Under the pieces are notes generated by a model. That model was not told the DNA's origin. It did not search any database and worked only from the letters and a program-made list of their open reading frames with translations. Shown here one piece after another: positions 23,192 to 38,768 of a DNA stretch of 58,013 nt; position 1 is the stretch's first letter, and every line of letters begins with the position of its first letter. The position numbers were made by a program, and so were the translations under genes. Origin of the DNA: Methanolobus sp. (lineage in GTDB: Archaea > Halobacteriota > Methanosarcinia > Methanosarcinales > Methanosarcinaceae); assembly GCF_030682845.1 (NCBI RefSeq), contig NZ_JAUXNK010000067.1, positions 1-58,013 on the forward strand. The letters run 5' to 3'.

Positions 23192-24493
23192 TCAATAGAA
23201 TGCATAGTAGATTATACTGGTTATTGCCATGCTGGCGATTCCCATAACTATTCCTCCCATGGTGTACGTCTTCAATATTTCGGGTGTTTCCATATCGGCG
23301 AGGTCCCCTAATATCCAGAAGAAGGGATCATTAAAGTGAGAGATAAGGAACGTTCCGGAAGCCATTGAGAAAAGCACTATCTCGGCAGGCAATCCCAGTT
23401 GTGGCATAATAGGTATCACTAATGCTGAAGCAACGAATAATGTTACCATTCTTGAGCCCTGCACGGTCTGGATAGCTGCTCCTATAAGGAATGGTATGAA
23501 CAAGACAGGTACGCTTGAAGTGATCAACATATTGCCAAGTGCTTCGCCAACACCTGCCAGTACGAGGGTTGCTCCAAGAGCCCCTCCTCCACATATATCC
23601 AGCATTACCAGCCCACTCCTCCTGATGCCCTTCTCGATCCATGCCCGCACATCAGCAGCGGCGAATTTCCTTGTTGGCAATATCATTGCAACCACAGCCC
23701 CGGACATCAGTGCCATGCCAGGGTTCCCTATAAAATAGAACACATCTGCATGTGTGGTGATGCGCATAAGGATAAGTACGACCGGGATGATGATAGGTGC
23801 ATAGCATGCTACCCTGGTGGGAAGAAGACTCACAACAGCAGGGTCTTTTGCAGGAGTTGTGTATCGGAAATAATCTCCCTTTATATTCATTTTGAATACT
23901 TTCATTATGTAAAGATACCCTACCAGTGACACAAACACAGCAATAAGGGTCCCGGTGACCAATACTCTTAATGCACTAATTTCAGTTGTGGGCCCTACGT
24001 CCCTTACAAAGGCGTAAATGCCGGGTGAAGGATATACCAGCCCGAAGGAGACCATGGTCCCCAACGCCAAAGCACCTTCCGTCACACCTTTCTTCAGGTT
24101 GAGCTTCTCGCTCAGGTCTTTGGCAACAGGGAGGAATATGATGAAGGCCAGTATCAGGCACATCATAGGCACTGCAAACATGAATCCCAACAGGAAGAGT
24201 GCCAGTACAGGTTTTTTGAATATCTTTATAATATCATCTGCGATTATCGAGGTGGCACCGCTTCTTTGCAGTATGATCCCGATTATGCTTCCGGCAGTAA
24301 CGACAATTGCAAATTCCGCAAATATGCTGCTCATGCCTGCTGTAATCGCATCCATTGTTCCTTCGGCCTCACCTGCAAGCAGGCCCACCAGCATAGATGC
24401 AGCAATCAGACTCAGGAAGGGATGCACTCTCAAACGTGCGGTAAGGATTAAAATAAAAATCAAAGCTACTATGAAGATAGTTATTGGCCCCAT
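23192..24493 (-). CDS. GntP-family permease, copy 1
   Basis: A 433-residue membrane protein with about 12 hydrophobic spans. The start 'ILILTARLRVHPFLSLIAASMLVGLLAG', the 'MCLILAFIIFLPVAK' segment and the ending 'SHFNDPFFWILGDLADMETPEILKTYT' are characteristic of the GntP (gluconate:H+ symporter) family. Members import gluconate, glycerate, D-serine and similar small acids. The substrate in this organism is unknown, and sugar-acid use is not typical for methylotrophic methanogens. A tandem paralogue lies upstream on the same strand, 107 bases away. Confidence 0.85.
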   Translation of the reverse strand: MGPITIFIVALIFILILTARLRVHPFLSLIAASMLVGLLAGEAEGTMDAITAGMSSIFAEFAIVVTAGSIIGIILQRSGATSIIADDIIKIFKKPVLALFLLGFMFAVPMMCLILAFIIFLPVAKDLSEKLNLKKGVTEGALALGTMVSFGLVYPSPGIYAFVRDVGPTTEISALRVLVTGTLIAVFVSLVGYLYIMKVFKMNIKGDYFRYTTPAKDPAVVSLLPTRVACYAPIIIPVVLILMRITTHADVFYFIGNPGMALMSGAVVAMILPTRKFAAADVRAWIEKGIRRSGLVMLDICGGGALGATLVLAGVGEALGNMLITSSVPVLFIPFLIGAAIQTVQGSRMVTLFVASALVIPIMPQLGLPAEIVLFSMASGTFLISHFNDPFFWILGDLADMETPEILKTYTMGGIVMGIASMAITSIIYYAFY

Positions 24494-24600
24494 TGATACC
24501 CCATCTATTCTAACTTACGCTATGTTATTTAAACCAGATGGCTATCCAAAAAACGTTGCTATTATTTTTGCACTAATACAAACCTTCCCATGGTATAGCA

Positions 24601-25902
24601 TCAGTAGAACAGGAAGTATATCGTGGCTGTCATAAACAGACTGCTGATTCCCATTATTATGCCTCCGGCAGTGTAGGTTTTCAGTATTTCTAAAGTTTCC
24701 ATTTCAGCGAGATCCCCGAATATCCAGAAGAAAGGATCATTAAAGTGGGAGATAAGCAGCGTCCCCGAGGCCATTGAGAAAAGCACTATTTCGGCAGGCA
24801 GCCCCAGTTGTGGCATCACTGGCATTACCAGTGCCAGGCTGACAAGCATCGTCACGACCCTTGAGCCCTGTACACTCTGGATCGCAGCTGCAATAAGGAA
24901 CGGGATAAACAAGACCGGCATGTTCACTCCAAGCAGGAGGTTCCCTATTGCCTGTCCGGCCCCTGTCAAGGCAAGCGTTGCTCCAAGAGCCCCTCCACCG
25001 CACATGTCCAGAAGCACCACTCCTCCTCTTCGGATGCCTTTCTCTATCCATTCCCTGACCTGCACAGAGGCAATTCCCCTTGTCGGGAGCACCATTGAAA
25101 GTATAACACCAATCAGAAGGGCAACATTAGGAGTACCTATGAAGTCAAGAGGAGGAATCGCTATAAAAATTCCAGCAAGAATGAGTATTATCGGAACAAC
25201 AAGAGGTGCATATGAAGCTATCCTGCCGGGTGAATGTTTCATGCTCTCCTGTTCCTTCTCTTGAGGTGTATTCATCTTTTTATTGTTGTTGCTTTCCTTG
25301 TTCTCTTCAAGTCTGCAGAACCTGATTGCATAAAGGTAACCGATAATTGAAACTGTAAAGGCGATGATAAATCCCGTAAGCAGTACTTCCGTACGTACTA
25401 TACCCAGCTCGACCATGGCCGGATAGACCACAGGTGAAGGATATACCAGACTAAAGGATGCCAATGTTCCAAGCCCAAGAGATGTTGCAGCAACTCCACG
25501 CGGCGAACTCAGCTTGGTGCTTATTTCCCTGGCAACCGGGATGAATATCACATACGCAAGTATGCAGCACATAAGAGGTACTGAGAATATGAAACCCAGC
25601 ATGTTGAGCGAGAGGAATGGCTTTTTTGACAAACTGATGATATCCTCTGCTATAAGTGCAGTCCCGCCTGTCCTGTGAAGTATGGTTCCAATGATACTGC
25701 CTGCAGTTATCACAATAGCAAACTGGGCGAAGACCCTGCCCATTCCTGTGGAAATAGCATCCATTGTCCCTTTAGCTTCGCCTGCAAGCAGACCTACCAG
25801 TAGCGAGCCGGCAATCAGGCTAAGGAAGGGATGTATCCTCAATCGTGCAGTAAGTATAAGGATGAATGCCAGTGCAATAAAAAAAATTATAAGCGGGTTC
25901 AT
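24601..25902 (-). CDS. GntP-family permease, copy 2
   Basis: A 433-residue paralogue of the downstream permease, with the same N-terminal 'ILILTARLRIHPFLSLIAGSLLVGLLAG' and C-terminal 'SHFNDPFFWIFGDLAEMETLEILKTYT'. The cytoplasmic loop in the middle (about residues 205-225) is different and more polar (a run of N, K and Q residues). GntP proteins are inner-membrane proton symporters of small carboxylates. The gene follows a pair of Cys/His proteins by 53 bases and could be transcribed with them. Confidence 0.85.
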   Translation of the reverse strand: MNPLIIFFIALAFILILTARLRIHPFLSLIAGSLLVGLLAGEAKGTMDAISTGMGRVFAQFAIVITAGSIIGTILHRTGGTALIAEDIISLSKKPFLSLNMLGFIFSVPLMCCILAYVIFIPVAREISTKLSSPRGVAATSLGLGTLASFSLVYPSPVVYPAMVELGIVRTEVLLTGFIIAFTVSIIGYLYAIRFCRLEENKESNNNKKMNTPQEKEQESMKHSPGRIASYAPLVVPIILILAGIFIAIPPLDFIGTPNVALLIGVILSMVLPTRGIASVQVREWIEKGIRRGGVVLLDMCGGGALGATLALTGAGQAIGNLLLGVNMPVLFIPFLIAAAIQSVQGSRVVTMLVSLALVMPVMPQLGLPAEIVLFSMASGTLLISHFNDPFFWIFGDLAEMETLEILKTYTAGGIIMGISSLFMTATIYFLFY

Positions 25903-25955: not shown

Positions 25956-26573
25956 TTAACGTGAACTTCGCTCTTCCACGTACAACAGGTAAAGGCAACT
26001 GTTTTCTCTCATCTCCATGAACCCCTGGGTCTCGGAGATGCCTGCCTTTTCAAGTAAGACCTTCTTCCAGGATTCTGGAGGAAGTGCAATCTCTCCTGTA
26101 TACGCTTTGGCGCCTATCTGGGCATATTGCAGGGGTTTGCCATCTATCTTGATTCTTTTTGCCACTTCTTTCCTGTAGGTCTGATGCATCATGCATGCGC
26201 TGTGAGCTGCTGATGGCTGTATCGTGTGATTGTAGTGGTCTGTGGCCTCAACATGCACAGGATTGAAGTTGCCTATGCGTTTGATATACTCCCTTATAGC
26301 TTTGGAGAACGGGCATATATTGGTGACGAACCCGTATTTGCTTATCTGCTCTATGCTCTCAAAGGACGAGAATACAGATTCACCGCTGGCGACAGCTTTT
26401 GCAAAATCGTCCCAGGTCTCGTATTCTTCCTCAGGTACGGATTTGGCAAGTGATTCAGCCTGGCCGACCATATAATTAGTAAATCCTTCCACGCCCTGTT
26501 TATCTGAGATATCCTCAAAGAACAGGAAGACGGAAACATCAACAAAAGGATTGGATTCAATATTCTCTGCCAT
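25956..26573 (-). CDS. Conserved protein of unknown function with CP and Cys-x2-HQ motifs (paralogue 1)
   Basis: A 205-residue soluble protein. It shares with the next gene the pattern 'C-P-x5-R-x-Y-I-x-R-I-G' (here NICPFSKAIREYIKRIGNF, about residues 86-104) and 'C-x2-H-Q-x2-R' (ACMMHQTYRKE, about 131-141), plus a conserved 'D-x-Y-N' before the latter. Conserved Cys and His suggest a metal or haem site or a thiol catalyst; the L-2-amino-thiazoline-carboxylate hydrolase-like group came to mind but I cannot confirm it. GGGTGATAAT precedes the ATG. It follows its paralogue by 10 bases. Confidence 0.6.
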   Translation of the reverse strand: MAENIESNPFVDVSVFLFFEDISDKQGVEGFTNYMVGQAESLAKSVPEEEYETWDDFAKAVASGESVFSSFESIEQISKYGFVTNICPFSKAIREYIKRIGNFNPVHVEATDHYNHTIQPSAAHSACMMHQTYRKEVAKRIKIDGKPLQYAQIGAKAYTGEIALPPESWKKVLLEKAGISETQGFMEMRENSCLYLLYVEERSSR

Positions 26574-26583
26574 ATTATCACCC

Positions 26584-27210
26584 TTAATCGACTACTTCCT
26601 CACCAGCGCTCTTTCCTTTTACTATAATGGCGAATACGCATGATGCGCTGCGAAGGATACTTTTGATGTGGCGTTCATCCACATTTATCCTTGCAAGATT
26701 CTCAGGCACCATTTTCACATCTCCTGTCATGCCTTTGTTTGCAAGCTGCAGGCATTCAAGGGCCTGTTTAGCGACTGTGACATTATTGGCCGCGATCTCC
26801 CTGAATCTCTGGTGAGTGATGCAGTAATTGGAAACCGCTGAATCCCTGATGCGATTATTGTAACTATCTGCAACGTCGGTGTCTGAATCGGGAATTGGCC
26901 CTATCCTGGAGATGTATCTTCTCATTGTAGGTGCCATGGGACAGGTCTTCAGTGCATAGACATATCCAATAACATCCCCGTCCTTGTCAATAATGGCAAG
27001 ATCGGTAAGTACGTTAACTTCTCCTTCTACGGTAAGGGATGTCCTTCCCTCTTTCATTGCCACGTTAAAGGCGGGCCAGCCTACATAAGCTTCTTTTCCC
27101 ATCCTTTCGGCATAACTTTCACCTACACGGAGCCAGTATTCTACAACACCCTCCGTTCCTGCTTTGCTGACCATATCATCAACAAGTGAATATATTGCAA
27201 TGTCCATCAT
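26584..27210 (-). CDS. Conserved protein of unknown function with CP and Cys-x2-HQ motifs (paralogue 2)
   Basis: A 208-residue soluble protein homologous to the downstream gene. The shared motifs are 'KTCPMAPTMRRYISRIGPI' (about residues 88-106) and 'YCITHQRFREIA' (about 133-144), with 'DSYNNRI' between. The N-terminal part ('EGVVEYWLRVGESYAERMG') also aligns loosely with 'EGFTNYMVGQAESLAKSVP' of its neighbour. AAGGAGAACC lies upstream of ATG 27210. It begins the minus-strand group that continues into the GntP permeases. Function is unknown; a two-subunit complex of the paralogues is possible. Confidence 0.6.
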   Translation of the reverse strand: MMDIAIYSLVDDMVSKAGTEGVVEYWLRVGESYAERMGKEAYVGWPAFNVAMKEGRTSLTVEGEVNVLTDLAIIDKDGDVIGYVYALKTCPMAPTMRRYISRIGPIPDSDTDVADSYNNRIRDSAVSNYCITHQRFREIAANNVTVAKQALECLQLANKGMTGDVKMVPENLARINVDERHIKSILRSASCVFAIIVKGKSAGEEVVD

Positions 27211-27931: not shown

Positions 27932-28555
27932 TCAGGAGAGCATTTTTCCGATAGATTCCCTGAGCTTATCAAGAGAAGCCGGATCAAGCAGGAGAAACAT
28001 GTCTCCATAGATGGTATTCAATCCCTTCCCGTCACCGGCGTCATGAACCATGAACATCGTTTCAATATTCAGCAACTCGTCAGGTTCATTCTCTATCAGT
28101 GAGGAAGCTCTTTTAAGAACATTCAGTATCGTTCCTATGACTATCTCCGGGGTGCTATGGCGCACTGTCATATCAAGGAAAGATGTAAGAGCCCCTATAT
28201 AGGAGCCTGCAAGTATATTTCCCAGTTCGGCAAGTGCAGATTCATGCATTGTAGGATCATTGGCCTGTTCAGATTCGCCAAGCATAAGGCTGCTCAGGAG
28301 CACAGCATTGTTAAATTCGAATAGAAGCAGGGCAACGCCTCTGAGTTCTCCTTCGATCTTTAACATGACCCCTGCCATAGTGATAGATTCGGGAATCAGC
28401 ATTGAGACCTTTTCATGCTGCAGCATTCCCACGTCTGAGAGGTTTAGCCTTACATTACGGCTCACGAGTTTTGAAAGGGAGGTTGTTGCATTTCCCATCC
28501 CTATGCTTCCGATCTCTTTGAGCGCGTCAGTCTCAAAACTGTTCAACATATCCAT
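27932..28555 (-). CDS. cheC: CheC-family chemotaxis phosphatase, paralogue with altered site 1
   Basis: A 207-residue CheC. CheC-type enzymes dephosphorylate CheY-P using two sites of pattern (D/S)-x3-E-x2-N. Here site 1 is D10-x3-E14-x2-S17 (ALKEIGSIGMGN): the catalytic Asn is replaced by Ser. Site 2 in 'HESALAELGNILAGSY' is intact (S, E, N). The start ATG 28555 has GTGAGG six bases before it; the longer GTG start at 28567 overlaps that signal. It is the last recognised che gene of the minus-strand cluster, separated from the other three cheC genes by a membrane protein gene and cheD. Confidence 0.9.
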   Translation of the reverse strand: MDMLNSFETDALKEIGSIGMGNATTSLSKLVSRNVRLNLSDVGMLQHEKVSMLIPESITMAGVMLKIEGELRGVALLLFEFNNAVLLSSLMLGESEQANDPTMHESALAELGNILAGSYIGALTSFLDMTVRHSTPEIVIGTILNVLKRASSLIENEPDELLNIETMFMVHDAGDGKGLNTIYGDMFLLLDPASLDKLRESIGKMLS

Positions 28556-28572
28556 ACTATACCTCACTACTT

Positions 28573-29805
28573 TTATTCAGGCTCAATGACTAATTTTTCA
28601 TTCTCTTCGCTTTGTTCCATGTAGAACTTCTCTCCGACGTAGAAGCGAACATATTCCTCCCTGCCGCCCTTTACGATACGTATTCTGGAATGCATGATAT
28701 CTGCAAGATTGAGGAAAAGCCCTTCAAATCTGGAAACAATTTTTTCTTCATGTGCTGGTTTATTGAGGAGGCCTATAAGGGTAATCTCACTGGTGCTGAA
28801 CCTTTCGACCATTTTTGATACGAACTCGTAGATCTCCGTTTCTCCCTCACTGACTATAAGATGTGTAAGAGGCTCAAATATTATGGCGCAATCTTTGGGC
28901 AATTTGCTTGTGAGGTCGAAGAACTTATCGAGCTCTGTAGCCGGTAATTTAATTATTCCACCGTCTTCTGAGATCGTTTTTATAGTGGGTGAGATCTCGA
29001 TGAACTTCATAGCACCGACATCCATGAGGTCGGCCAGCTTTTCCTTATAAAGATTTGTCCGTGGCTGGGTGGAAACAAGTACTGTGTTCACTGTCTCTCC
29101 ATACAACCTGAGGCATATTTCGATAACTGCATCCTCATATCTCATATGAGGGGCATATTCAAGCAAAGTGGACCGTTTGAACAGATTTGCAGTCTGTTCA
29201 AACTCTGCAAAAACACCTGCCCTGTCATTCATGGGGCATTTATCGATCTCTTCTTCATACCTGATGCATGTGTCTAGTACATCACAGTCCATGCATGATG
29301 TCATGCCTTTGTCAACAACGCACTCATATATCAGGCATTTTTCTTCTGCATGCCTGTTCTTAGAAATGCATCCCGGACACTTCTCACTTTCATACATCTC
29401 ACAAAGGGAACATTTCTTTGCACATGCGGATTTCACGACCTGGTTCTTCTGGAAAACCATTCCTTCAAGAAGGAAATCCCCAAGTTTCTCCCGGGGAATG
29501 GTCCTGAAAGCAGTGAACATCATAAAGCCTGCTGCTGCAAATATGCTGGTATATACCGCACTCCAGAAACCCAGATATATAAGAATGGTTTCAGAAACTG
29601 TAGGGTCAGGTATACTGACTGCCACAGAAGGGAATATGGATGTGGTTATGAGGAATATAGCTGTGAGTGCAAGAAGCAGCCATGCGATGGACCCTTTCTT
29701 AGTCTCATAATATACCCTGACCCAGAAGTAAATAGCTGCTATCCCTGCTGAAAGTGAGATAGAGATGAATAATATGTATACCAATGTGATATCCGGGGTT
29801 AACAT
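28573..29805 (-). CDS. Membrane protein with Cys-rich segment and DUF835/RecA-like C-terminal domain
   Basis: A 410-residue protein. Residues 1-95 hold three membrane spans ('LVYILFISISLSAGIAAIYFW', 'SIAWLLLALTAIFLITT', and 'ILIYLGFWSAVYTSIFAAAG'-like). Residues about 125-195 contain some twelve cysteines in CxxC-type pairs (CAKKCSLC, CPGC, CMDC), suggesting a zinc or iron-sulfur site. Residues about 215-390 resemble DUF835, a RecA/KaiC-like fold without a Walker A loop. Such a layout suits a membrane sensor or adaptor. Its position between cheD and the last cheC links it to the chemosensory cluster, where no ordinary receptor gene is present. Confidence 0.65.
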   Translation of the reverse strand: MLTPDITLVYILFISISLSAGIAAIYFWVRVYYETKKGSIAWLLLALTAIFLITTSIFPSVAVSIPDPTVSETILIYLGFWSAVYTSIFAAAGFMMFTAFRTIPREKLGDFLLEGMVFQKNQVVKSACAKKCSLCEMYESEKCPGCISKNRHAEEKCLIYECVVDKGMTSCMDCDVLDTCIRYEEEIDKCPMNDRAGVFAEFEQTANLFKRSTLLEYAPHMRYEDAVIEICLRLYGETVNTVLVSTQPRTNLYKEKLADLMDVGAMKFIEISPTIKTISEDGGIIKLPATELDKFFDLTSKLPKDCAIIFEPLTHLIVSEGETEIYEFVSKMVERFSTSEITLIGLLNKPAHEEKIVSRFEGLFLNLADIMHSRIRIVKGGREEYVRFYVGEKFYMEQSEENEKLVIEPE

Positions 29806-29859: not shown

Positions 29860-30333
29860 TTAATATATTTTTTGCCTTTTAAGAGCACTTTTCACTATAA
29901 GCTCGCCATTATCTGTGTCCAGGATTATCGTACGTCCATAGTTCTCGCCTGTATCTTCTGCGACCAGCGGGATCCTTAGTTTCTTCAGGATTTCCTTGGT
30001 TGCAGTGACATTCCTCTCTCCAATATTGAGCTGGGTGGTTGAGCTGAAGGAAAACATTCTAGCTCCTCCTGCGATTTTAGCTTTGATGGCACTCTTTGCG
30101 GCGCCTTCCTTTACCATACATTCTACGAGATAGGGTATACCTGTATCAGCAAACTTTGCAAGATTATCCTTTGCTCTTGCATTTTCTATACTTGGAAGCA
30201 TTATATGCACCATTCCGCCGACACAGCTGCTTTTATCGTACATGGCAACACCTACGCACGACCCCAGTCCAAGAGTCGTTATTTTAGCAGGTTTTTTTGC
30301 TACCGCGCTGTCTGCCATTCCTACGATTATCAT
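29860..30333 (-). CDS. cheD: Chemoreceptor glutamine deamidase
   Basis: A 157-residue CheD. The motif 'TLGLGSCVGVAMYDKSSCVGGMVHIMLP' supplies the catalytic Cys26 and His43. CheD deamidates receptor glutamines and, with CheC, forms a complex that raises CheC phosphatase activity in Bacillus and Thermotoga. It starts 5 bases after the stop of a cheC gene, matching the usual CheC-CheD coupling. The 9-residue lead before the conserved core is slightly long; M6 is an alternative start. Confidence 0.93.
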   Translation of the reverse strand: MIIVGMADSAVAKKPAKITTLGLGSCVGVAMYDKSSCVGGMVHIMLPSIENARAKDNLAKFADTGIPYLVECMVKEGAAKSAIKAKIAGGARMFSFSSTTQLNIGERNVTATKEILKKLRIPLVAEDTGENYGRTIILDTDNGELIVKSALKRQKIY

Positions 30334-30338
30334 GATAT

Positions 30339-30950
30339 TCAGGTACGCATTTTGTTGATCCTGTCAAGGATGTTCCTCATGGAGGCTGCATCCAGCAGCA
30401 TGTACATGTCACCGCTCAGGCTATGGTACTCATCTTCAGCTTCTATCTCAAACAGCGCGGTCAGCCCAATGATATGATCTACTTTTCCGTTGAGGTATTT
30501 TCCGCACTTTTTCAATAGGTCTTCAGGACTGCCTTCTGCCAGTACGGGCAATGAAGGTGTTACTGACATGTCAAGGAACTTTGAAAGAGCAGTACAGTAG
30601 GTACCTGCCAGGATATTTGCCACTTCTATGACAACTGAATTCCTCATGTAAGGATCATCTTCGTATTCTGTGTGTGCAAGCATCATCTCTGATAGTACTT
30701 CCGAATGCCTTTTATTCAACATGAGTATGAAACCGCCGTTCAGGTCACCTATTACCTTGACTATGGCTCCTGTCTTGCTATGATCCTCATGATCTGAAAT
30801 ACTGTCTGGGTCAAGGGATGTGAGTTCAGAGGCACTGACCTTGATCGTTTTTCCAATCAGTTGAGAAAGAGCTGTTGTGGCGTTTCCCATACCAATGTTC
30901 CCTATCTCATTAAGCGCGTCATAATAGAACTGGTCAAGTATTATTTTCAT
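30339..30950 (-). CDS. cheC: CheC-family chemotaxis phosphatase, both sites intact
   Basis: A 203-residue CheC. Site 1 is D11-x3-E15-x2-N18 (YYDALNEIGNIG) and site 2 is S-x3-E-x2-N in 'NSVVIEVANILAGTY': both complete. It is the only one of the four paralogues in this cluster with two full phosphatase sites. It lies directly before cheD (gap 5 bases), so it is the most likely classic CheC-CheD partner and CheY-P phosphatase. GGAGGTAGAAT precedes the ATG. Confidence 0.93.
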   Translation of the reverse strand: MKIILDQFYYDALNEIGNIGMGNATTALSQLIGKTIKVSASELTSLDPDSISDHEDHSKTGAIVKVIGDLNGGFILMLNKRHSEVLSEMMLAHTEYEDDPYMRNSVVIEVANILAGTYCTALSKFLDMSVTPSLPVLAEGSPEDLLKKCGKYLNGKVDHIIGLTALFEIEAEDEYHSLSGDMYMLLDAASMRNILDRINKMRT

Positions 30951-30966: not shown

Positions 30967-31581
30967 TTATACCATATCGTTAATTCTTGTAAGGATCCTG
31001 TCCATTGATTCAGGATCGAACAAAGTTAGTAGGATACCTTCCATCCTGTTTTTTTCCATTGTGAAGAAGGTGTCAAAGAGAAATGTGTACTCCACGTTCC
31101 TACTCATTTCAATGAGTATCTGGTCCATGATGGCACCAAGCATGTCATAGGTCTGCATCGGAGGTGAGATCTTGAAATTCAGTCCCAGGAATTCAGAGAG
31201 TGAGCTTACGTAGGAACCTGCCAGGATATGTCCCACTTCCTCTATGAGGGATTGGTTCATGGAGCTCAGGATATCCGGAGCTTCTTCGCCGGTAATTGTG
31301 GTGCATATCGTTTCGGCGGTGTCCCTGGATAGCAACATCATGATGTAACCGTTAATGTCTCCGTCCAGATGCATAATCACTCCCGAGACCACCGTATCAG
31401 CGCCGCCGGCACTCTCCGGTACTTCCTCTATCTTCTCTATCTTTAGTTCTGGAACTTCTATACTGATCTGCTTGCCTATCATCTTTGAAAGGGAGGTCAC
31501 AGCATTACCCACGCCTATATTGACTATTTCCTTCAAAGCACTGGCCTGCAGCTCAGTCAATTCATCCATCCTGCCTGTCAT
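30967..31581 (-). CDS. cheC: CheC-family chemotaxis phosphatase, paralogue with altered site 2
   Basis: A 204-residue CheC. Site 1 is intact (S14-x3-E18-x2-N21 in SALKEIVNIGVG). Site 2 reads S-x3-E-x2-H in 'SLIEEVGHILAGSY', so the Asn is lost. The frame extends to an ATG at 31737, which would overlap cheR by 104 bases; ATG 31581 with GAGGA eight bases before it gives the normal CheC length and is chosen. The intervening 52 bases separate it from cheR. It probably binds CheY-P or CheD with reduced or single-site activity. Confidence 0.88.
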   Translation of the reverse strand: MTGRMDELTELQASALKEIVNIGVGNAVTSLSKMIGKQISIEVPELKIEKIEEVPESAGGADTVVSGVIMHLDGDINGYIMMLLSRDTAETICTTITGEEAPDILSSMNQSLIEEVGHILAGSYVSSLSEFLGLNFKISPPMQTYDMLGAIMDQILIEMSRNVEYTFLFDTFFTMEKNRMEGILLTLFDPESMDRILTRINDMV

Positions 31582-31633
31582 GTTTTTTTCCTCTGTATCC
31601 GTTTTTGATTTGCCTGGTTCTGTCGGCCCTTGG

Positions 31634-32470
31634 TCATTTGCAGTATATTCTTTCTTTTGCATTGAAAGGTCTGAAGCGGTCTTTGGAGGGTCCAAGGAGT
31701 GTTTCCGTTTTTCCCATGACAAAGAATCCATTCTCATTCAGTCCTTCGTAAAAGTCCATGTACAATTTTTCCTGCAGTTCTTTTTCAAAATAAATAGTGA
31801 CATTCCTGCAGAATATGATGTCAAATCCCTTGATCTTCGGGCCTGATATCATGTCATGGGACTTGAAGTGCGTCATCTTTTTGAGACTGTCTATTACATG
31901 GTACTGGTTTCCCTGCTGTACAAAATACTTTTTCAGGAACGTGGGCCCCACATCTTTCATTTCAATGTCGCTGTAGACACCCTGCTGGGCCTGCTGAAGG
32001 CTTGCCTTGTCTATGTCAGTGCCTGTTATCGATATATTGTATCTTTTGAGATTAACTCCCAGAATGTGGTCCAGAAGCATTGCAATGGAGTATGCTTCCA
32101 CTCCTATGGAGCAACCGGCGCTCCATATCTTTATGGATTTGAGAGGACTGCTGCCTTTCGACTTGATCACGGCAGGGAGTACTTCTTTTTCCACGATGTC
32201 ATATACCTCTGTGTTACGGAAGAAGTTCGTGACATTGACAGTCAGCGTATCCATGAGTACAGCACGCTCACCATCATTCTCTTTCAGGAGCTTTACATAA
32301 TCCCCATAATTATTCGAGCCAGAAGCTCTCAGTCTCACATCGATTCTCCTTTTAAAATGGGAATCCTTATAGTACTCACAGTTAAACCCGAGTTTGTCTT
32401 TGATCACGTTCTTGAGCATTGCAAAATCGGCATCCTCTTTCGTAACATGTTTCTCAGCAGTCTTAAGCAT
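31634..32470 (-). CDS. cheR: Chemoreceptor glutamate methyltransferase
   Basis: A 278-residue CheR. The N-terminal helical domain includes 'KRRIDVRLRASGSNNYGDY'. The SAM-binding loop 'IWSAGCSIGVEAYSIAMLL' corresponds to the usual GCS(T/S)GEEPYS, here with G-V-E-A in place of G-E-E-P. 'DIIFCRNVTIYFEKELQ' matches the conserved 'I.CRNVLIYF' motif. It methylates receptor glutamates for adaptation. Its start lies directly at the stop of the FtsA-like gene (TAAATG with GAGG in front), so the two are translated together. Confidence 0.92.
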   Translation of the reverse strand: MLKTAEKHVTKEDADFAMLKNVIKDKLGFNCEYYKDSHFKRRIDVRLRASGSNNYGDYVKLLKENDGERAVLMDTLTVNVTNFFRNTEVYDIVEKEVLPAVIKSKGSSPLKSIKIWSAGCSIGVEAYSIAMLLDHILGVNLKRYNISITGTDIDKASLQQAQQGVYSDIEMKDVGPTFLKKYFVQQGNQYHVIDSLKKMTHFKSHDMISGPKIKGFDIIFCRNVTIYFEKELQEKLYMDFYEGLNENGFFVMGKTETLLGPSKDRFRPFNAKERIYCK

Positions 32471-34588
32471 TTAAACCTCTTGGAATTCTATGCTAACTTT
32501 GTTTCCGTCTCTCAATGGTGTTGTAAAACGGGCGGGGGTACCGTTAACAAAGAGCTTGATGCTTTTTCCTACAAGCTCTTCTCTGTTTATGTCCATGAAC
32601 TCAAAAAGATCTGAAAGGATAGGGTTTTCATAAGCCCCTTCTTTTACTGTGATAGCATCGCCGTCAAACACTCTTTCAGAAAGTTCTGCCTTCTTTCCAT
32701 TAACCGTTATAGAACTATCGTGGCCGTTGAATGTCACTTTTTCACCGTTGAGTGTCACACTGGTACTTCTCCGGTTCTCAGGCACCTCAACAATATCATC
32801 AACGGTCCAGAAGGCTTCACATTTTTCTATCTGCACCTTATCCCCGTTCTTGATGATCATGCTGGGAAGATCAACAGGTTCTACCACATTCCCGTTCAGC
32901 ATGACTGATAATTTTATTCTGTCAAGGAGTTTTGGCTTCTTATTCACCGTGACCTGCATCTTGTCAGTGATATCGGCACATGCTAACTGAATAACTTCTT
33001 TCAGTGTGACGGGTTCGATAATGACTTCTGACCTGTCGGGCACATTATCCTCAGGTGAAGCTATTTTTCCATTTATATGAATAGGGGTCATCTGTCTGGC
33101 TACTTTATCATTGACAGTAATATCTGTAAACGCATTCATCTGCATTTTGGATATGAGCTCCCCGACCGTTATGCTTGCATCCCTGCCATCAGAAGGCGGT
33201 TCAAACTCTATTCTGGAACCCTTGTGAACCGGGTCCCCCAGTTTTGCTCTTTTTCCATCTAGCAGGACGCTGGCATGCTTCCCGGCATCTCCTTCAATGG
33301 TTATGAACTGAGAGTTCACTTTGAGTGTAAGGGCAAGCCCGGGGCGCGGATAAAGTCTTTTTATGTGTGTGGCCACAAGAGCGTCCATCACCGACAGGCC
33401 ATTAAGTGCCATTAGATGCACGGTTGTGTTATTGACTGTCAGCTCTGTGAATTCAATGCCCGTCTTGCGGATAGCTGTCAGGGCTATGCCAAGAGGTGTT
33501 ATCATATCGGCGCCAGTGACTTTGCCAGTAGTGTCCCTGAATGTATCTATCATCGCAGGAAGGCGTGCTCCTATTCGCTGCACAGGAACTCCCAGGTGCA
33601 CTGAAAGCCGCTCTTTGAGCTTAACTGTCTGTGATCCTCCTCCGACAAGGACGACTGCACGTGGGGACTTTCCATTTATTGCGAGTATCTCGTTTGCTAT
33701 GTGCAGAGCGAGTTTGTCCACCTCCTCGCCAATAACAGAGATCACTTCTGCAGCCTGTATCCTAATGACATTGCCAAAAAAGTCCTTAATCTCTATAATA
33801 TCACATGTGGAGACTGTTTGCTTGATCTCTTCGCCCTTTTTAAAATCGAGCAGGTAATGGTCACAAATAAAATCCGTTATTTCGTCCCCTGCCTCTGCAA
33901 CCATGCCATAGCCTATGACAGTTCCGTCATTGGTTACAGCAATATCTGATGTGCCTGCCCCTATATCTACAAGTGCTATGTTCAGTTTGCGCATATCCAC
34001 CGGGATGGCAACACTCAGTGCAGCTATCGGCTCCAGGGTGATACTCGAAACTTCCATGTCGCACCTGGCAAGCACCGCAAACATACTGTTAATAACGGCT
34101 TCAGGCAGAAAGGTTGCAAGGACCTCTATTGAAATTGAGCTTCCACTGTGTCCTGTTATGTTCGATATCCTCTGTCCGTCAAGCTCATAGCCGATAACTG
34201 AATAACCTACACAGTTAAACCGTTCGCCAGCATCTATTTCAGTGCTGGCTCTTGCCACGGCTTCGAATTCGATCTCTGACACATCATTCTCAGTGATCTC
34301 CCTGTAAGGCAGGTCAATAGACAGTTTTGCTTTAGATGTTTTAAGGGCCCTGCCGGCAACTGCCACACAGGCCCGTGTGAGTTTATACCCTATCTCTTTT
34401 TCGAGCTCGGCTTTTACTTTTCTTACGACCTCTGCAACCTTTTCCACATCGTGGATCTGCCCGTCATGCATACTGCGCTCTTCATGTTCGCATATGCATG
34501 CGGCTTTCACTTCCAGAGGCTCTCCTTCAACAATGAGCCCCACAACAGTCCTGGTACCTATATCCAGGGCAAAGTGGGAATTGTTCAT
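32471..34588 (-). CDS. FtsA/PilM-type actin-like ATPase with C-terminal beta-grasp-like repeats
   Basis: A 705-residue protein. Residues 1-375 form an actin/Hsp70-type ATPase core of FtsA kind: phosphate-1 motif 'FALDIGTRTVVGLIV' (6-20), an FtsA-like 1C/SHS2 insertion (about 80-165), phosphate-2 motif 'ALVDIGAGTSDIAV' (205-218) and adenosine motif 'AVVLVGGGSQTVKL' (311-324). Residues about 380-705 hold five or six repeats of the style 'V-N-G-x-x-...-V-x-D-G-D-x-I-x-V', resembling ThiS/SLBB beta-grasp units. FtsA proteins polymerise on membranes to anchor FtsZ in bacteria; archaea normally lack them. It is sandwiched between cheC (1-base gap) and cheR (0 gap). A scaffold or positioning role in the chemosensory machine is inferred, not shown. 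Confidence 0.8.
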   Translation of the reverse strand: MNNSHFALDIGTRTVVGLIVEGEPLEVKAACICEHEERSMHDGQIHDVEKVAEVVRKVKAELEKEIGYKLTRACVAVAGRALKTSKAKLSIDLPYREITENDVSEIEFEAVARASTEIDAGERFNCVGYSVIGYELDGQRISNITGHSGSSISIEVLATFLPEAVINSMFAVLARCDMEVSSITLEPIAALSVAIPVDMRKLNIALVDIGAGTSDIAVTNDGTVIGYGMVAEAGDEITDFICDHYLLDFKKGEEIKQTVSTCDIIEIKDFFGNVIRIQAAEVISVIGEEVDKLALHIANEILAINGKSPRAVVLVGGGSQTVKLKERLSVHLGVPVQRIGARLPAMIDTFRDTTGKVTGADMITPLGIALTAIRKTGIEFTELTVNNTTVHLMALNGLSVMDALVATHIKRLYPRPGLALTLKVNSQFITIEGDAGKHASVLLDGKRAKLGDPVHKGSRIEFEPPSDGRDASITVGELISKMQMNAFTDITVNDKVARQMTPIHINGKIASPEDNVPDRSEVIIEPVTLKEVIQLACADITDKMQVTVNKKPKLLDRIKLSVMLNGNVVEPVDLPSMIIKNGDKVQIEKCEAFWTVDDIVEVPENRRSTSVTLNGEKVTFNGHDSSITVNGKKAELSERVFDGDAITVKEGAYENPILSDLFEFMDINREELVGKSIKLFVNGTPARFTTPLRDGNKVSIEFQEV

Positions 34589-34589
34589 C

Positions 34590-35204
34590 TCATCCCATCA
34601 TCTTTTTCATGATCGCAGCCATTATAACGTCGCTTGCCTCAGGTTCGAACAGCATGTTGAACTCGTTCCTTGAGTTTGTGGACGGTATATAGCATTCTCC
34701 TTTAACGACTATGAACTCGTCAGCAAGCTGCCCAATCTCCTTCTTGATAAAATCAGTCACACCTTCCATATTCACATCCATCCGGGGGTCTCCGATCGCA
34801 AGGTTGATCCCGAGGAACTCATTGACCACACGCATGTATGAGCTACAGAGCCGCACTCCCATTTCACGAAGTTTGCGGATTTCCATCTCTTCTATCTTTG
34901 TGGTCGTCCCTATAGATTTTTTTAAAAGGAGGTCGGAGAATGAAAGTGCTGAGAACTTTGGTAAAAGGATCAGAGTTCCTCCGGTCACATCTCCTGAAAT
35001 ACTGAGGTGAATACCTACAACGCTCTTCTGCTTTCCATTGGAGGCCCTGGAGATGATCTCATCCAGCGATAGCATCTCTACAACAGGGATGTCTATCTTT
35101 ACCTCTCTGCTGACCATTTTGGAGAGAGCGGTTGCCAGATGACCCATTCCGATATTCCCTGCTTCCTGGAATGCTCCTTTTGTCATTTCGTCCATTTCAG
35201 TCAT
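34590..35204 (-). CDS. cheC: CheC-like protein, largely degenerate phosphatase sites
   Basis: A 204-residue member of the CheC/FliY fold. Site 1 reads G10-x3-E14-x2-N17 (GAFQEAGNIGMGH): the first acidic/Ser residue is lost but Glu and Asn remain. Site 2 reads R-x3-E-x2-V ('KLREMGVRLCSSY'), missing two of three residues. It starts 17 bases after the cheA stop with GAGGG, and ends one base before the FtsA-like ATPase. This variant may act as a binding or adaptor protein more than as an enzyme. Confidence 0.85.
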   Translation of the reverse strand: MTEMDEMTKGAFQEAGNIGMGHLATALSKMVSREVKIDIPVVEMLSLDEIISRASNGKQKSVVGIHLSISGDVTGGTLILLPKFSALSFSDLLLKKSIGTTTKIEEMEIRKLREMGVRLCSSYMRVVNEFLGINLAIGDPRMDVNMEGVTDFIKKEIGQLADEFIVVKGECYIPSTNSRNEFNMLFEPEASDVIMAAIMKKMMG

Positions 35205-35221
35205 TTTATACCCTCATCATA

Positions 35222-37255
35222 TCATATCAAAGTTGCAATGTCAAGGATCAGTGCAACGCTTCCATCTCCAAGGATGGTAGCACCTGCAAATCCCCTTGTG
35301 TTCTTCAAAAGTTTATTGTCAAGAGTCTTGATGATTACTTCCTGCTGTCCCAGAAGCTGATCAACAACAAATCCAATATTGCTGCCCATTCGTTCCACAA
35401 CGACCACTATAAGGTTCTCTTTCTTCTCAGCCTCTCCCGGGCAATCAAGAACATCGCGCAGCCTCAGCAGCGGCAATACCTCTCCACGTAGCAGGATGAC
35501 CTCTTTTCCCTCAATTGTCTTTATGTCCCTGGCCTTTATGCCCACGTCCCTAACAACATTTGCAAGAGGTATTGCATACGTTTCTCCTGCAATAGTCACC
35601 ATCAGGGACTGGATGATCGCAACAGTCAGGGGCAGTTGCAGTTTGATGGAGCTTCCCTGGCCCGGCACCGAGCTGACCTTTACAGTACCTCCAAGTGCTT
35701 CTATCTTAGTTTTGACCGCATCCATGCCGACTCCCCTGCCGGAGACATCGGTGATGGTCTTCGCGCCGCTGAAGCCAGCCACGAATATAAGGTTAAGTGC
35801 ATCCGTGTCAGAGAGCTTATCCACTTCTTCGCGGTTCATTATTCCCTTTTTAACCGCAATGTCTCTCAGATGCCCAGGATCCATACCTTTTCCGTCATCC
35901 TGCACCTCTATGATTACACTGTTCCTCTGCCTTGAAGCGGAAAGACCGACAAAACCAGCGACAGGTTTGCCGAGTTTTATGCGTTCTCCAGTAGGTTCGA
36001 TACCATGGTCTACGGCATTGCGCAAAAGGTGGACAAGCGGGTCTCCGATCTCGTCAAGCACAGTTCTGTCAAGTTCTATCTCCTTCCCTTCGATGACAAG
36101 GTCCACCTGTTTACCTTCTGATTTTGCAAGATCCCTTATCATTCGCGGGAACCTGCTGAACACCTGGTCGATAGGCACCATCCTGGCTTCCATGACCTCG
36201 TTCTGTATCTCGTTGGTCAGGCGGTCCAGGTTGGCAAGAGATTCATCAAGACTCTTGGCATTGATATCGGAAGCAAGCTGGTTCAGTCTGATCTTATTGA
36301 TTATCAGTTCACCCACAAGATTCATGAGATTGTCAAGGCGCTCAATGTTGACCCTGACGCTCTGGATACTTTTTACAGATTCTGATCTCTTGACACCTGA
36401 ACTACATTTCTGTGACTCTCTTGTGTCTTCTTTTATCGTGGATTCGGTTTCGTCATTTTCACATGCATACAAAGCTGAGATATCAATGGCCTTGATCTCC
36501 GATATCTTTGTAATTACTTCCGTAATTCTGGCATCATCCTCTTTTGTGGCAAAGACGACAGAAAACTCAAAGCCGAACTTCTCATCCTCCAGGTCTGCTT
36601 CTGATGGCATGCACTTAATGATCTTTCCCATCTTTGACAGGTTTATGAGCACAAGCGTGGATCTTGCTGACTTCAGTACACAGGATGGATCCAGCATGAC
36701 CTTTAATTCAAGTATCCTGTTCCCTTCATGGTGTGCAGTCTCAATGTCGGCATTTTCAGATTCTGACAACTGAATGTGCATTTCTGTTTCATGGGCCGGC
36801 TTTAAGTTTTCCTGTGTATTTATTGAGACTGTTCCTGCAAGGCTGCTTGCAATGTTACCTGTTGCTTCAACAGCACAAAGAGCGCCTTCCATGGCTTGCG
36901 TAAGTGTGGCCTGCAGGTGGGATATGTTAACCTCCCCTCCGGTGTCCACGCTCTCGACAAGGGCTTCAAGTGTATCCAGGCACTCAAAAAGTATATCGAT
37001 AAGGGAGTCACTGACAGCCACCTGGCATTTGCGTACCATGTCCATCAGATTTTCCATCTCATGGGTAAGTTCTGCGATGGTGCTGAATCCCATGGTAGCT
37101 GACATTCCTTTGAGGGTATGTGCAGAGCGGAACATCGTGTTGATGTATTCGATCTCCAGGGGGTTCTGTTCAAGCCCGAGCAGAGACTCATTCAACTGTT
37201 GGAGATGTTCTTCAGACTCTGCCTTGAAAATATCCTTATATTCGGACATATCCAT
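35222..37255 (-). CDS. cheA: Chemotaxis histidine kinase
   Basis: A 677-residue CheA with HPt domain (phospho-accepting His46 in 'FRSAHTLKGMSATMGF'), a poorly conserved P2 region (about 170-290), dimerisation helices (about 300-360, 'VRVNIERLDNLMNLVGELI'), an ATPase domain with N box 'LVHLLRNAVDHGIE' and G boxes 'DDGKGMD' and 'GRGVGMDAVK', and a C-terminal CheW-like regulatory domain (about 540-677). It phosphorylates CheY and CheB. No separate cheW is visible in the window. GAGGGGTG precedes ATG 37255. Confidence 0.96.
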   Translation of the reverse strand: MDMSEYKDIFKAESEEHLQQLNESLLGLEQNPLEIEYINTMFRSAHTLKGMSATMGFSTIAELTHEMENLMDMVRKCQVAVSDSLIDILFECLDTLEALVESVDTGGEVNISHLQATLTQAMEGALCAVEATGNIASSLAGTVSINTQENLKPAHETEMHIQLSESENADIETAHHEGNRILELKVMLDPSCVLKSARSTLVLINLSKMGKIIKCMPSEADLEDEKFGFEFSVVFATKEDDARITEVITKISEIKAIDISALYACENDETESTIKEDTRESQKCSSGVKRSESVKSIQSVRVNIERLDNLMNLVGELIINKIRLNQLASDINAKSLDESLANLDRLTNEIQNEVMEARMVPIDQVFSRFPRMIRDLAKSEGKQVDLVIEGKEIELDRTVLDEIGDPLVHLLRNAVDHGIEPTGERIKLGKPVAGFVGLSASRQRNSVIIEVQDDGKGMDPGHLRDIAVKKGIMNREEVDKLSDTDALNLIFVAGFSGAKTITDVSGRGVGMDAVKTKIEALGGTVKVSSVPGQGSSIKLQLPLTVAIIQSLMVTIAGETYAIPLANVVRDVGIKARDIKTIEGKEVILLRGEVLPLLRLRDVLDCPGEAEKKENLIVVVVERMGSNIGFVVDQLLGQQEVIIKTLDNKLLKNTRGFAGATILGDGSVALILDIATLI

Positions 37256-37316: not shown

Positions 37317-38411
37317 TTATCTTAGCATATGGACTATCTCGCTTGATACTCTTTCAAGGCTCACTGTACTATCTGAAAGCCCGCGCTGGACAACCGCTTT
37401 TGGCATACCATAGACCACACAGGACTTCTCATCCTCTGTTATCACCTTGCCGCCGGCTTTCTTTATCTCTTCGGCCCCATCCGCCCCGTCTGCCCCCATT
37501 CCGGTGAGCACTACCGCCAGTATGTTTTGTCCGTAGAGCGGAACCAGGGATTTGAAAAGGATGTTCGCACATGGCCTGACACCCTGCTCACGCGGATTCT
37601 GGTTAAGGGAGACAACTTCTGATGTGCGTCCGCTTATGCTCTTCTGTACTATCTCCATGTGGTAGTTTCCCGGAGCAATGTACACAACGCCTGGTTCAAG
37701 CACGTCTCCATCCTTAGCCTCACATACCGTAAGTTGTGACTGCATGTCCAGCCTCTGTGCCATGGATGCTGTAAAACCTGCTGGCATGTGCTGTACAATG
37801 ACAACTGGTACCTTCAGGTCTGCGGGCAGTTTGGGAACTACCTGCTCAAGTGCCCGCGGTCCTCCGGTTGAGGAAGCTATCGCAAGTATCTTCTGGTTTG
37901 AAAAGTGCTTTTTCCTTGAGTCTTCGGGAGGCTTTGCAGGTATACTTAGCTCTTTTTTTGCATGGTTTCCTCTGGAATTCACATGTTCTTCCATAAAGCC
38001 TAGCTTTTTAAGGTCCACTTTAGATGCAATTTTGACTTTTAAGCGGATGTCATCAGCTATATCCATTATATTCAGGCTGATATTGCCGGAAGGCTTCTGG
38101 ATAAAGTCTACAGCTCCATATTCAAAAGCATTCAATGTTCTTTCTGCAGACTTCGGATCAATGGCCGTGAGCATTACCACTGGAGTCGGACACTCACTCA
38201 TGATATATCCGAGTGCGTGCAGCCCGTCAAGTGTTGGCATCTCTACGTCAAGAGTGACCACATCAGGCCTGAGCCTCTCAACTTTTTCTACAGCTTCGAG
38301 GCCGTTCCTTGCTGTTCCTATCACTCTGATCTCCTGATCTTCTGAAAGGATGTCAGAGATAACTTTACGCATCAGCGCCGAATCATCGACTACAAGGACA
38401 TTGATCGTCAT
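37317..38411 (-). CDS. cheB: Chemoreceptor methylesterase/deamidase response regulator
   Basis: A 364-residue CheB. The receiver domain has the phospho-acceptor Asp55 ('DVVTLDVEMPTLDG'), followed by a linker and the methylesterase domain with Ser in 'AIASSTGGPRAL', His in 'VIVQHMPAGF' and Asp in 'LTGMGADGADG'. It removes methyl groups added by CheR when phosphorylated by CheA. It begins immediately after the cheY stop codon. Confidence 0.96.
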   Translation of the reverse strand: MTINVLVVDDSALMRKVISDILSEDQEIRVIGTARNGLEAVEKVERLRPDVVTLDVEMPTLDGLHALGYIMSECPTPVVMLTAIDPKSAERTLNAFEYGAVDFIQKPSGNISLNIMDIADDIRLKVKIASKVDLKKLGFMEEHVNSRGNHAKKELSIPAKPPEDSRKKHFSNQKILAIASSTGGPRALEQVVPKLPADLKVPVVIVQHMPAGFTASMAQRLDMQSQLTVCEAKDGDVLEPGVVYIAPGNYHMEIVQKSISGRTSEVVSLNQNPREQGVRPCANILFKSLVPLYGQNILAVVLTGMGADGADGAEEIKKAGGKVITEDEKSCVVYGMPKAVVQRGLSDSTVSLERVSSEIVHMLR

Positions 38412-38768
38412 TTACATTACTTTTCCGATAACTTCCAGGACCTTTGCGGCATCAAAAGGCTTCACTATGAAATCAAGGGCGCCACTTTTGAGAGCATCAG
38501 TAACTACTGACTGCTGCCCAATGGATGAGCACATTACCACTCTTGCAGAAGGGTCCATTTGCATTATTTTCTTTAATGCGTCTGTTCCTTCCATGTTTGG
38601 CATAACGATGTCCATGAACACCAGGTCCGGTTTGAACTGGGGATATTTCTGGACAGCATCAAGTCCGTCAACACATTCAGCCACGACCTCATGACCATTC
38701 TTTTTCAGAATATCCTTGATGACCATGCGCATAAATGCGGCGTCGTCCACAATCATTATTTTTGCCAT
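38412..38768 (-). CDS. cheY: Chemotaxis response regulator
   Basis: A 118-residue single-domain receiver: acidic pocket D8-D9, phospho-acceptor Asp53 ('LVFMDIVMPNMEG'), switch Ser in 'VVMCSSIG' and Lys in 'FIVKPFD'. CheA phosphorylates it and CheC proteins dephosphorylate it. In archaea CheY-P acts on the archaellum switch through CheF; neither cheF nor archaellum genes are seen here, so the output is open. It is the first gene of the minus-strand cluster. AAGGGAG precedes the ATG and a dyad element lies 28 bases upstream. Confidence 0.95.
   Translation of the reverse strand: MAKIMIVDDAAFMRMVIKDILKKNGHEVVAECVDGLDAVQKYPQFKPDLVFMDIVMPNMEGTDALKKIMQMDPSARVVMCSSIGQQSVVTDALKSGALDFIVKPFDAAKVLEVIGKVM

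Follow-up and report, generated by a model that had tools for sequence, protein, structure and literature searches.

Actin-like ATPases position the machines of cell division, pili, plasmids, and magnetosomes, and PilM binds a short cytoplasmic peptide of PilN. To our knowledge, no actin-like ATPase has been assigned to chemosensory arrays. In the present study, we analyzed a stretch of 58,013 nucleotides from Methanolobus sp. (hereafter, the window), in which a gene for an FtsA-like ATPase is located within an operon of chemotaxis (che) genes. Our literature search found no paper on this gene or its family.

The gene (32471..34588, minus strand) is an open reading frame of 705 codons with an ATG start, a TAA stop, and no internal stop codon, and Pfam/NCBIfam searches, an AlphaFold2 (AF2) model, and Foldseek identify the product as an actin-clan ATPase followed by a C-terminal tandem beta-grasp tail. 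The three actin-clan motifs noted in a preliminary description of this DNA are present, namely phosphate-1 (DIGTRTVVG, residues 9-17), phosphate-2 (DIGAGTSDIA, 208-217), and adenosine (LVGGGSQ, 314-320), and a check of the nucleotide site found their core residues to be invariant in 17 homologues (11 archaeal and 6 from Bacillota) with identity down to 35%. The FtsA-like 1C region of the same description was also recovered, both by the match to TIGR01174 (ftsA) over residues 7-353 (E=1.6e-28) and by a Foldseek alignment to FtsA spanning about 390 columns; the TIGR01174 score of 99.8 bits is below the equivalog cut-off of 175.85. The Pfam PilM_2 model (PF11104) matched residues 9-262 with 34.1 bits, above its cut-off of 27, and TIGR01175 (pilM) matched with 55 bits (E=6.5e-15), below its cut-off of 133; matches of residues 1-375 to EutJ and MreB were weaker than those to FtsA and PilM. 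The model of the full protein had a mean pLDDT of 82 and a pTM of 0.58, and its best PDB matches were FtsA structures, with the ATP-bound double filament 7q6f at the top (TM-score 0.82 by target length), followed by PilM structures. Judged by sequence and predicted fold, residues 1-375 (33464..34588, minus strand) form an intact FtsA-type ATPase domain with a 1C subdomain. The host has a second actin-clan protein of 359 aa (L002:1432-2511), which is MreB/salactin-like (MreB_Mbl E=3e-18, Salactin E=4.5e-5).

Residues 376-705 (32474..33463, minus strand) form the tail, which consists of about five alpha-beta-beta units of the ThiS/ubiquitin-like beta-grasp type. The VNG...DGD repeats previously read in this part are real, and they score as ThiS (PF02597, E=1.8e-8, 35.3 bits, above the cut-off of 22.5) and, more weakly, as Ub-Mut7C, both models covering the last two units. 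When modelled alone, the tail reached a pLDDT of 86 and matched bacterial multi-ubiquitin proteins and ThiS in Foldseek (3cwi, TMt 0.69). The chain ends in a beta-strand in the AF2 models, and thus the C-terminal amphipathic membrane-targeting helix of FtsA is absent from them. The C-terminal GG required for sulfur transfer or conjugation is also absent, the protein ending in EFQEV, and therefore the tail shows no sign of use as a sulfur carrier or in conjugation. The ATPase half is more conserved than the tail, both among archaea (73% vs 54%) and in comparison with Bacillota (45% vs 24%). The dN/dS ratio was about 0.16 overall, 0.09 in the ATPase domain, and 0.28 in the tail, and such substitution rates indicate purifying selection on the gene.

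All genes of the operon are on the minus strand and, unless otherwise stated, were identified by profile match. The order is CheY (the first gene, 38412..38768), CheB methylesterase (37317..38411), CheA histidine kinase (35222..37255, the sole one found by a search of the genome), a CheC-like protein (34590..35204, PF04509 E=1.8e-6), the FtsA-like protein, CheR methyltransferase (31634..32470, PF01739 E=3e-52), two further CheC-like proteins (30967..31737 and 30339..30950, the latter with both phosphatase motifs intact by eye), CheD deamidase (29860..30333), a protein with a hydrophobic N-terminus and a weak DUF3795 match (28573..29805), and a last CheC-like protein (27932..28567, from the annotation of the downstream operon genes). 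We read both junctions in the sequence, and they are as initially described: one base separates the 3' end of the upstream cheC from the ATG of the FtsA-like gene, and the ATG of cheR, at 32470, directly follows its TAA with no gap. Just downstream of the operon (25956-27210, minus strand), two adjacent genes encode small proteins of 208 and 205 aa, which are 82-100% identical across five genera of Methanosarcinaceae, a conservation similar to or higher than that of CheY; they matched no Pfam or NCBIfam family, apart from one weak PDC-sensor match (E=0.05). Farther downstream (23192-25902, minus strand) are two tandem GntP-family permease genes of 433 aa each.

The genome search of the host also detected MCP-domain matches at four loci besides the single CheA, and archaellum genes including archaellins, FlaC/DE, and T2SSE/T2SSF-type motor proteins; thus, the host has a motility output at its disposal. 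A genome search did not find Pfam CheF in the host, and strong CheF matches were limited to other genera. Downstream of the archaellins, a divergent CheF-like protein (L205:7398-7985) matched PF04283 below the cut-off (E=0.002). We considered whether the loss of CheF could explain the presence of the FtsA-like gene and dropped this idea, because the genera with the same operon and no FtsA-like gene also have no strong CheF matches, and because the host has the weak CheF-like protein beside its archaellins.

Among 101 genomes of Methanosarcinaceae, 24 have the FtsA-like gene (23 of Methanolobus and one of a sister genus), and in the 393 genomes sampled from the phylum it was not found outside this family; within the family, it is confined to these two genera. 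The che neighbours were the same genes around every archaeal copy (24/24). The gene is intact in 22 of the 24 sampled Methanolobus and occupies the same position in the operon in all of these and in the sister genus, so the embedding in a che operon seen in the window is conserved across the genus. In one Methanolobus (G095) and in three other genera (g14, g5, and g6), the che operon lacks the gene and cheC adjoins cheR. In another Methanolobus (G089, L064:6768-7418), an in-frame remnant of 216 aa without most of the ATPase was observed, in a draft genome in which misassembly is possible; in this remnant, the invariant DGQ motif is changed to GGQ. The gene is thus dispensable, because the che operon persists where it is absent (G095) or cut short (G089). 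It is an accessory gained into an already existing che operon, since the operon occurs without it in the three other genera and one Methanolobus. The arrival of the gene together with the che set, as suggested in the preliminary description, is therefore not supported, and we rejected a co-transfer with che genes because sister genera have the operon without the gene.

The preliminary description placed FtsA-like proteins of about 700 residues in Clostridia, and homologues of this length are indeed widespread in Bacillota, where 167 of 299 genomes have a homologue. Full-length homologues are 34-41% identical to the archaeal protein and co-linear over the ATPase and tail, including the named Bacillota in our alignment (35-36%, full-length co-linear). 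All five named Bacillota genomes searched have a second, shorter FtsA-type match (frames of 434-444 aa), which we take to be the division FtsA; in our tree, these shorter copies are on a deep branch (support 100) apart from the family of about 700 aa. The position of homologues mostly outside che operons had been named beforehand as evidence against a chemosensory role, and this is what was observed at the level of gene neighbourhoods. Of 66 Bacillota loci, 12 had cheR just upstream, mostly in a single context of heme genes, 7 had a flagellar rod gene of the flhO/flgG type beside the homologue, and 2 had a che cluster nearby; the neighbourhoods vary and have no common che operon context. The homologue of Anoxybacillus, for example, is annotated as PilM, with ccpA, ytxJ, and murC as neighbours. 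However, this is offset at the genome level by the co-occurrence with CheA: its dimerisation domain was found in 165 of the 167 carriers vs 81 of the 132 non-carriers (p=6e-19, with genomes treated as independent though related). Among the Bacillota genomes of 2.1 Mb or less, carriers made up 34 of the 60 with CheA and none of the 16 listed without it. The association may reflect flagella or sporulation instead. The near-exclusive occurrence of the homologues in genomes with chemotaxis genes suggests an unrecognised accessory of chemotaxis or motility. Matches to the homologue also occur in nine faecal records that are labelled Bacteriophage sp. and have no annotation; full-length copies (30-33% identity) are in MT838807.1, MT839800.1, MT835753.1, MT835512.1, and MT838720.1. 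These records may be mislabelled bacterial DNA. We considered a viral origin of the gene and set it aside, and no viral relative was confirmed among the IMG/VR contigs searched.

Most likely, the ancestor of Methanolobus and the sister genus gained the gene from Bacillota by horizontal transfer, a direction that we infer. Transfer into archaea is the simplest reading because of the wide spread in Bacillota vs the narrow archaeal island. In a quick tree, the archaea were nested inside Bacillota (SH-aLRT 94). A separate Bacillota clade was not rejected by the AU test (p 0.76), and thus the direction rests on the distribution and not on the tree; nesting of the archaea with the cheR-adjacent Bacillota clade was likewise not rejected (p 0.51).

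The explanation that we prefer, to which we give about an even chance, is that this horizontally acquired FtsA paralogue serves the apparatus of chemosensing or motility as a non-essential accessory, with an ATP-oligomerising core and a tail that binds a Che protein or the array. The link with chemosensing or motility is fairly well supported, and the scaffold mechanism, including oligomerisation, the binding partner, and the positioning role, is what we infer. By its insertion between cheC and cheR of a pre-existing CheC-rich operon, the gene would have become co-translated with both, as its position suggests. The ATPase core could then oligomerise in the fashion of FtsA, or act as a switch, in an ATP-dependent manner, and the beta-grasp tail might bind the array or one of the Che proteins encoded next to it (CheC or CheR), so that adaptation enzymes or arrays would be gathered or positioned. 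The adjoining CheC (34590-35204) is a candidate partner, because it is near-invariant among close relatives (dN/dS 0.00-0.02) and because inspection by eye shows a degenerate phosphatase motif, in which E and N are kept and the first residue and the second site are lost. In Haloferax volcanii, the NTPases MinD2 and MinD4 affect the positioning of arrays and archaella (PMC11588486); by analogy, an array-positioning role may be plausible in archaea. More tentatively, and with somewhat less than an even chance, the family, which has had no name so far and joins an actin-clan ATPase to a ubiquitin-like tail, may be a dedicated cytoskeletal element of chemosensing or motility in the majority of the Bacillota sampled, which moved into an archaeal che operon and there organises the array or its adaptation enzymes. 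Confirmation would tie chemotaxis to an FtsA-type protein in two domains of life, and would assign a function to a family that the majority of the sampled Bacillota genomes carry and of which one annotated member has been named PilM on the basis of similarity.

One possible alternative, which we consider rather unlikely, is that the ATPase is a PilM-like cytoplasmic clamp. It would hold a membrane protein by a short cytoplasmic peptide and connect it with Che proteins or with the platform of the archaellum or pilus, and would form no filaments. The PilM_2 match above the cut-off, the TIGR01175 match, the second rank of PilM structures in the fold search, the annotation of the Anoxybacillus homologue, and the absence of a membrane-binding C-terminal helix of its own are consistent with such a clamp. 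However, FtsA outscores PilM both by the full-length sequence model and by fold, no PilN/PilO-like neighbour was seen, and the putative membrane protein of the operon (28573-29805) is also present in genera without the FtsA-like gene. A slightly less probable possibility is a general motility or flagellar accessory of Bacillota, not specific to chemosensing, which in Methanolobus serves the assembly or positioning of the archaellum and merely uses the che promoter. The flagellar rod gene beside some homologues and the archaellum genes of the host fit this idea, and the presence of CheA is itself a proxy for motility; against it, no archaeal copy was seen outside the che operon, and cheR adjoins the homologue in some Bacillota.

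That the transferred gene landed in the che operon as a passenger with no functional tie to it seems improbable. Although it is absent or truncated in two Methanolobus with the operon intact, and Bacillota homologues are mostly outside che operons, a passenger would not be expected to be intact in 22 of 24 Methanolobus at a fixed position with an invariant ATP site, to have a dN/dS of 0.16, or to co-occur with CheA in Bacillota. Least probable by far is a cell-division FtsA working with FtsZ: the best matches are indeed FtsA, but this identity is disfavoured by the separate, shorter FtsA on its deep branch in Bacillota, the score under the ftsA equivalog cut-off, the lack of the C-terminal membrane helix, and the absence of the gene from most Methanosarcinaceae.

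Compared with known systems, the accessory that we propose is closest to FtsA (TIGR01174; PDB 7q6f, 7q6d, and 1e4f), with which it has in common the actin-clan ATPase, the 1C subdomain, and all nucleotide motifs. It differs in its low identity to FtsA (about 21%), its beta-grasp tail of 330 residues in place of a C-terminal membrane-targeting helix, and its che-operon context, and the Bacillota carriers checked have a separate division FtsA besides it. PilM (PF11104; PDB 2ych and 5eou) has the actin-like fold with 1C in common with it, and gives its name to the Anoxybacillus homologue; sequence and fold scores to PilM are lower, the tail is extra, and no pilN/O/P/Q (pilMNOPQ) genes are among the annotated operon neighbours. 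The tail units have the beta-grasp fold and the VNG...DGD signature of ThiS/MoaD/SAMP and bacterial multi-ubiquitin proteins (PF02597; PDB 3cwi and 9cd2), but here they form a tandem array fused to an ATPase, without a terminal GG. The likeness to MinD2 and MinD4 of H. volcanii (PMC11588486), as NTPases affecting the positioning of archaeal arrays and archaella, is a functional analogy only; these proteins, which were studied experimentally, have a ParA/MinD fold, which is not related to that of the actin clan.
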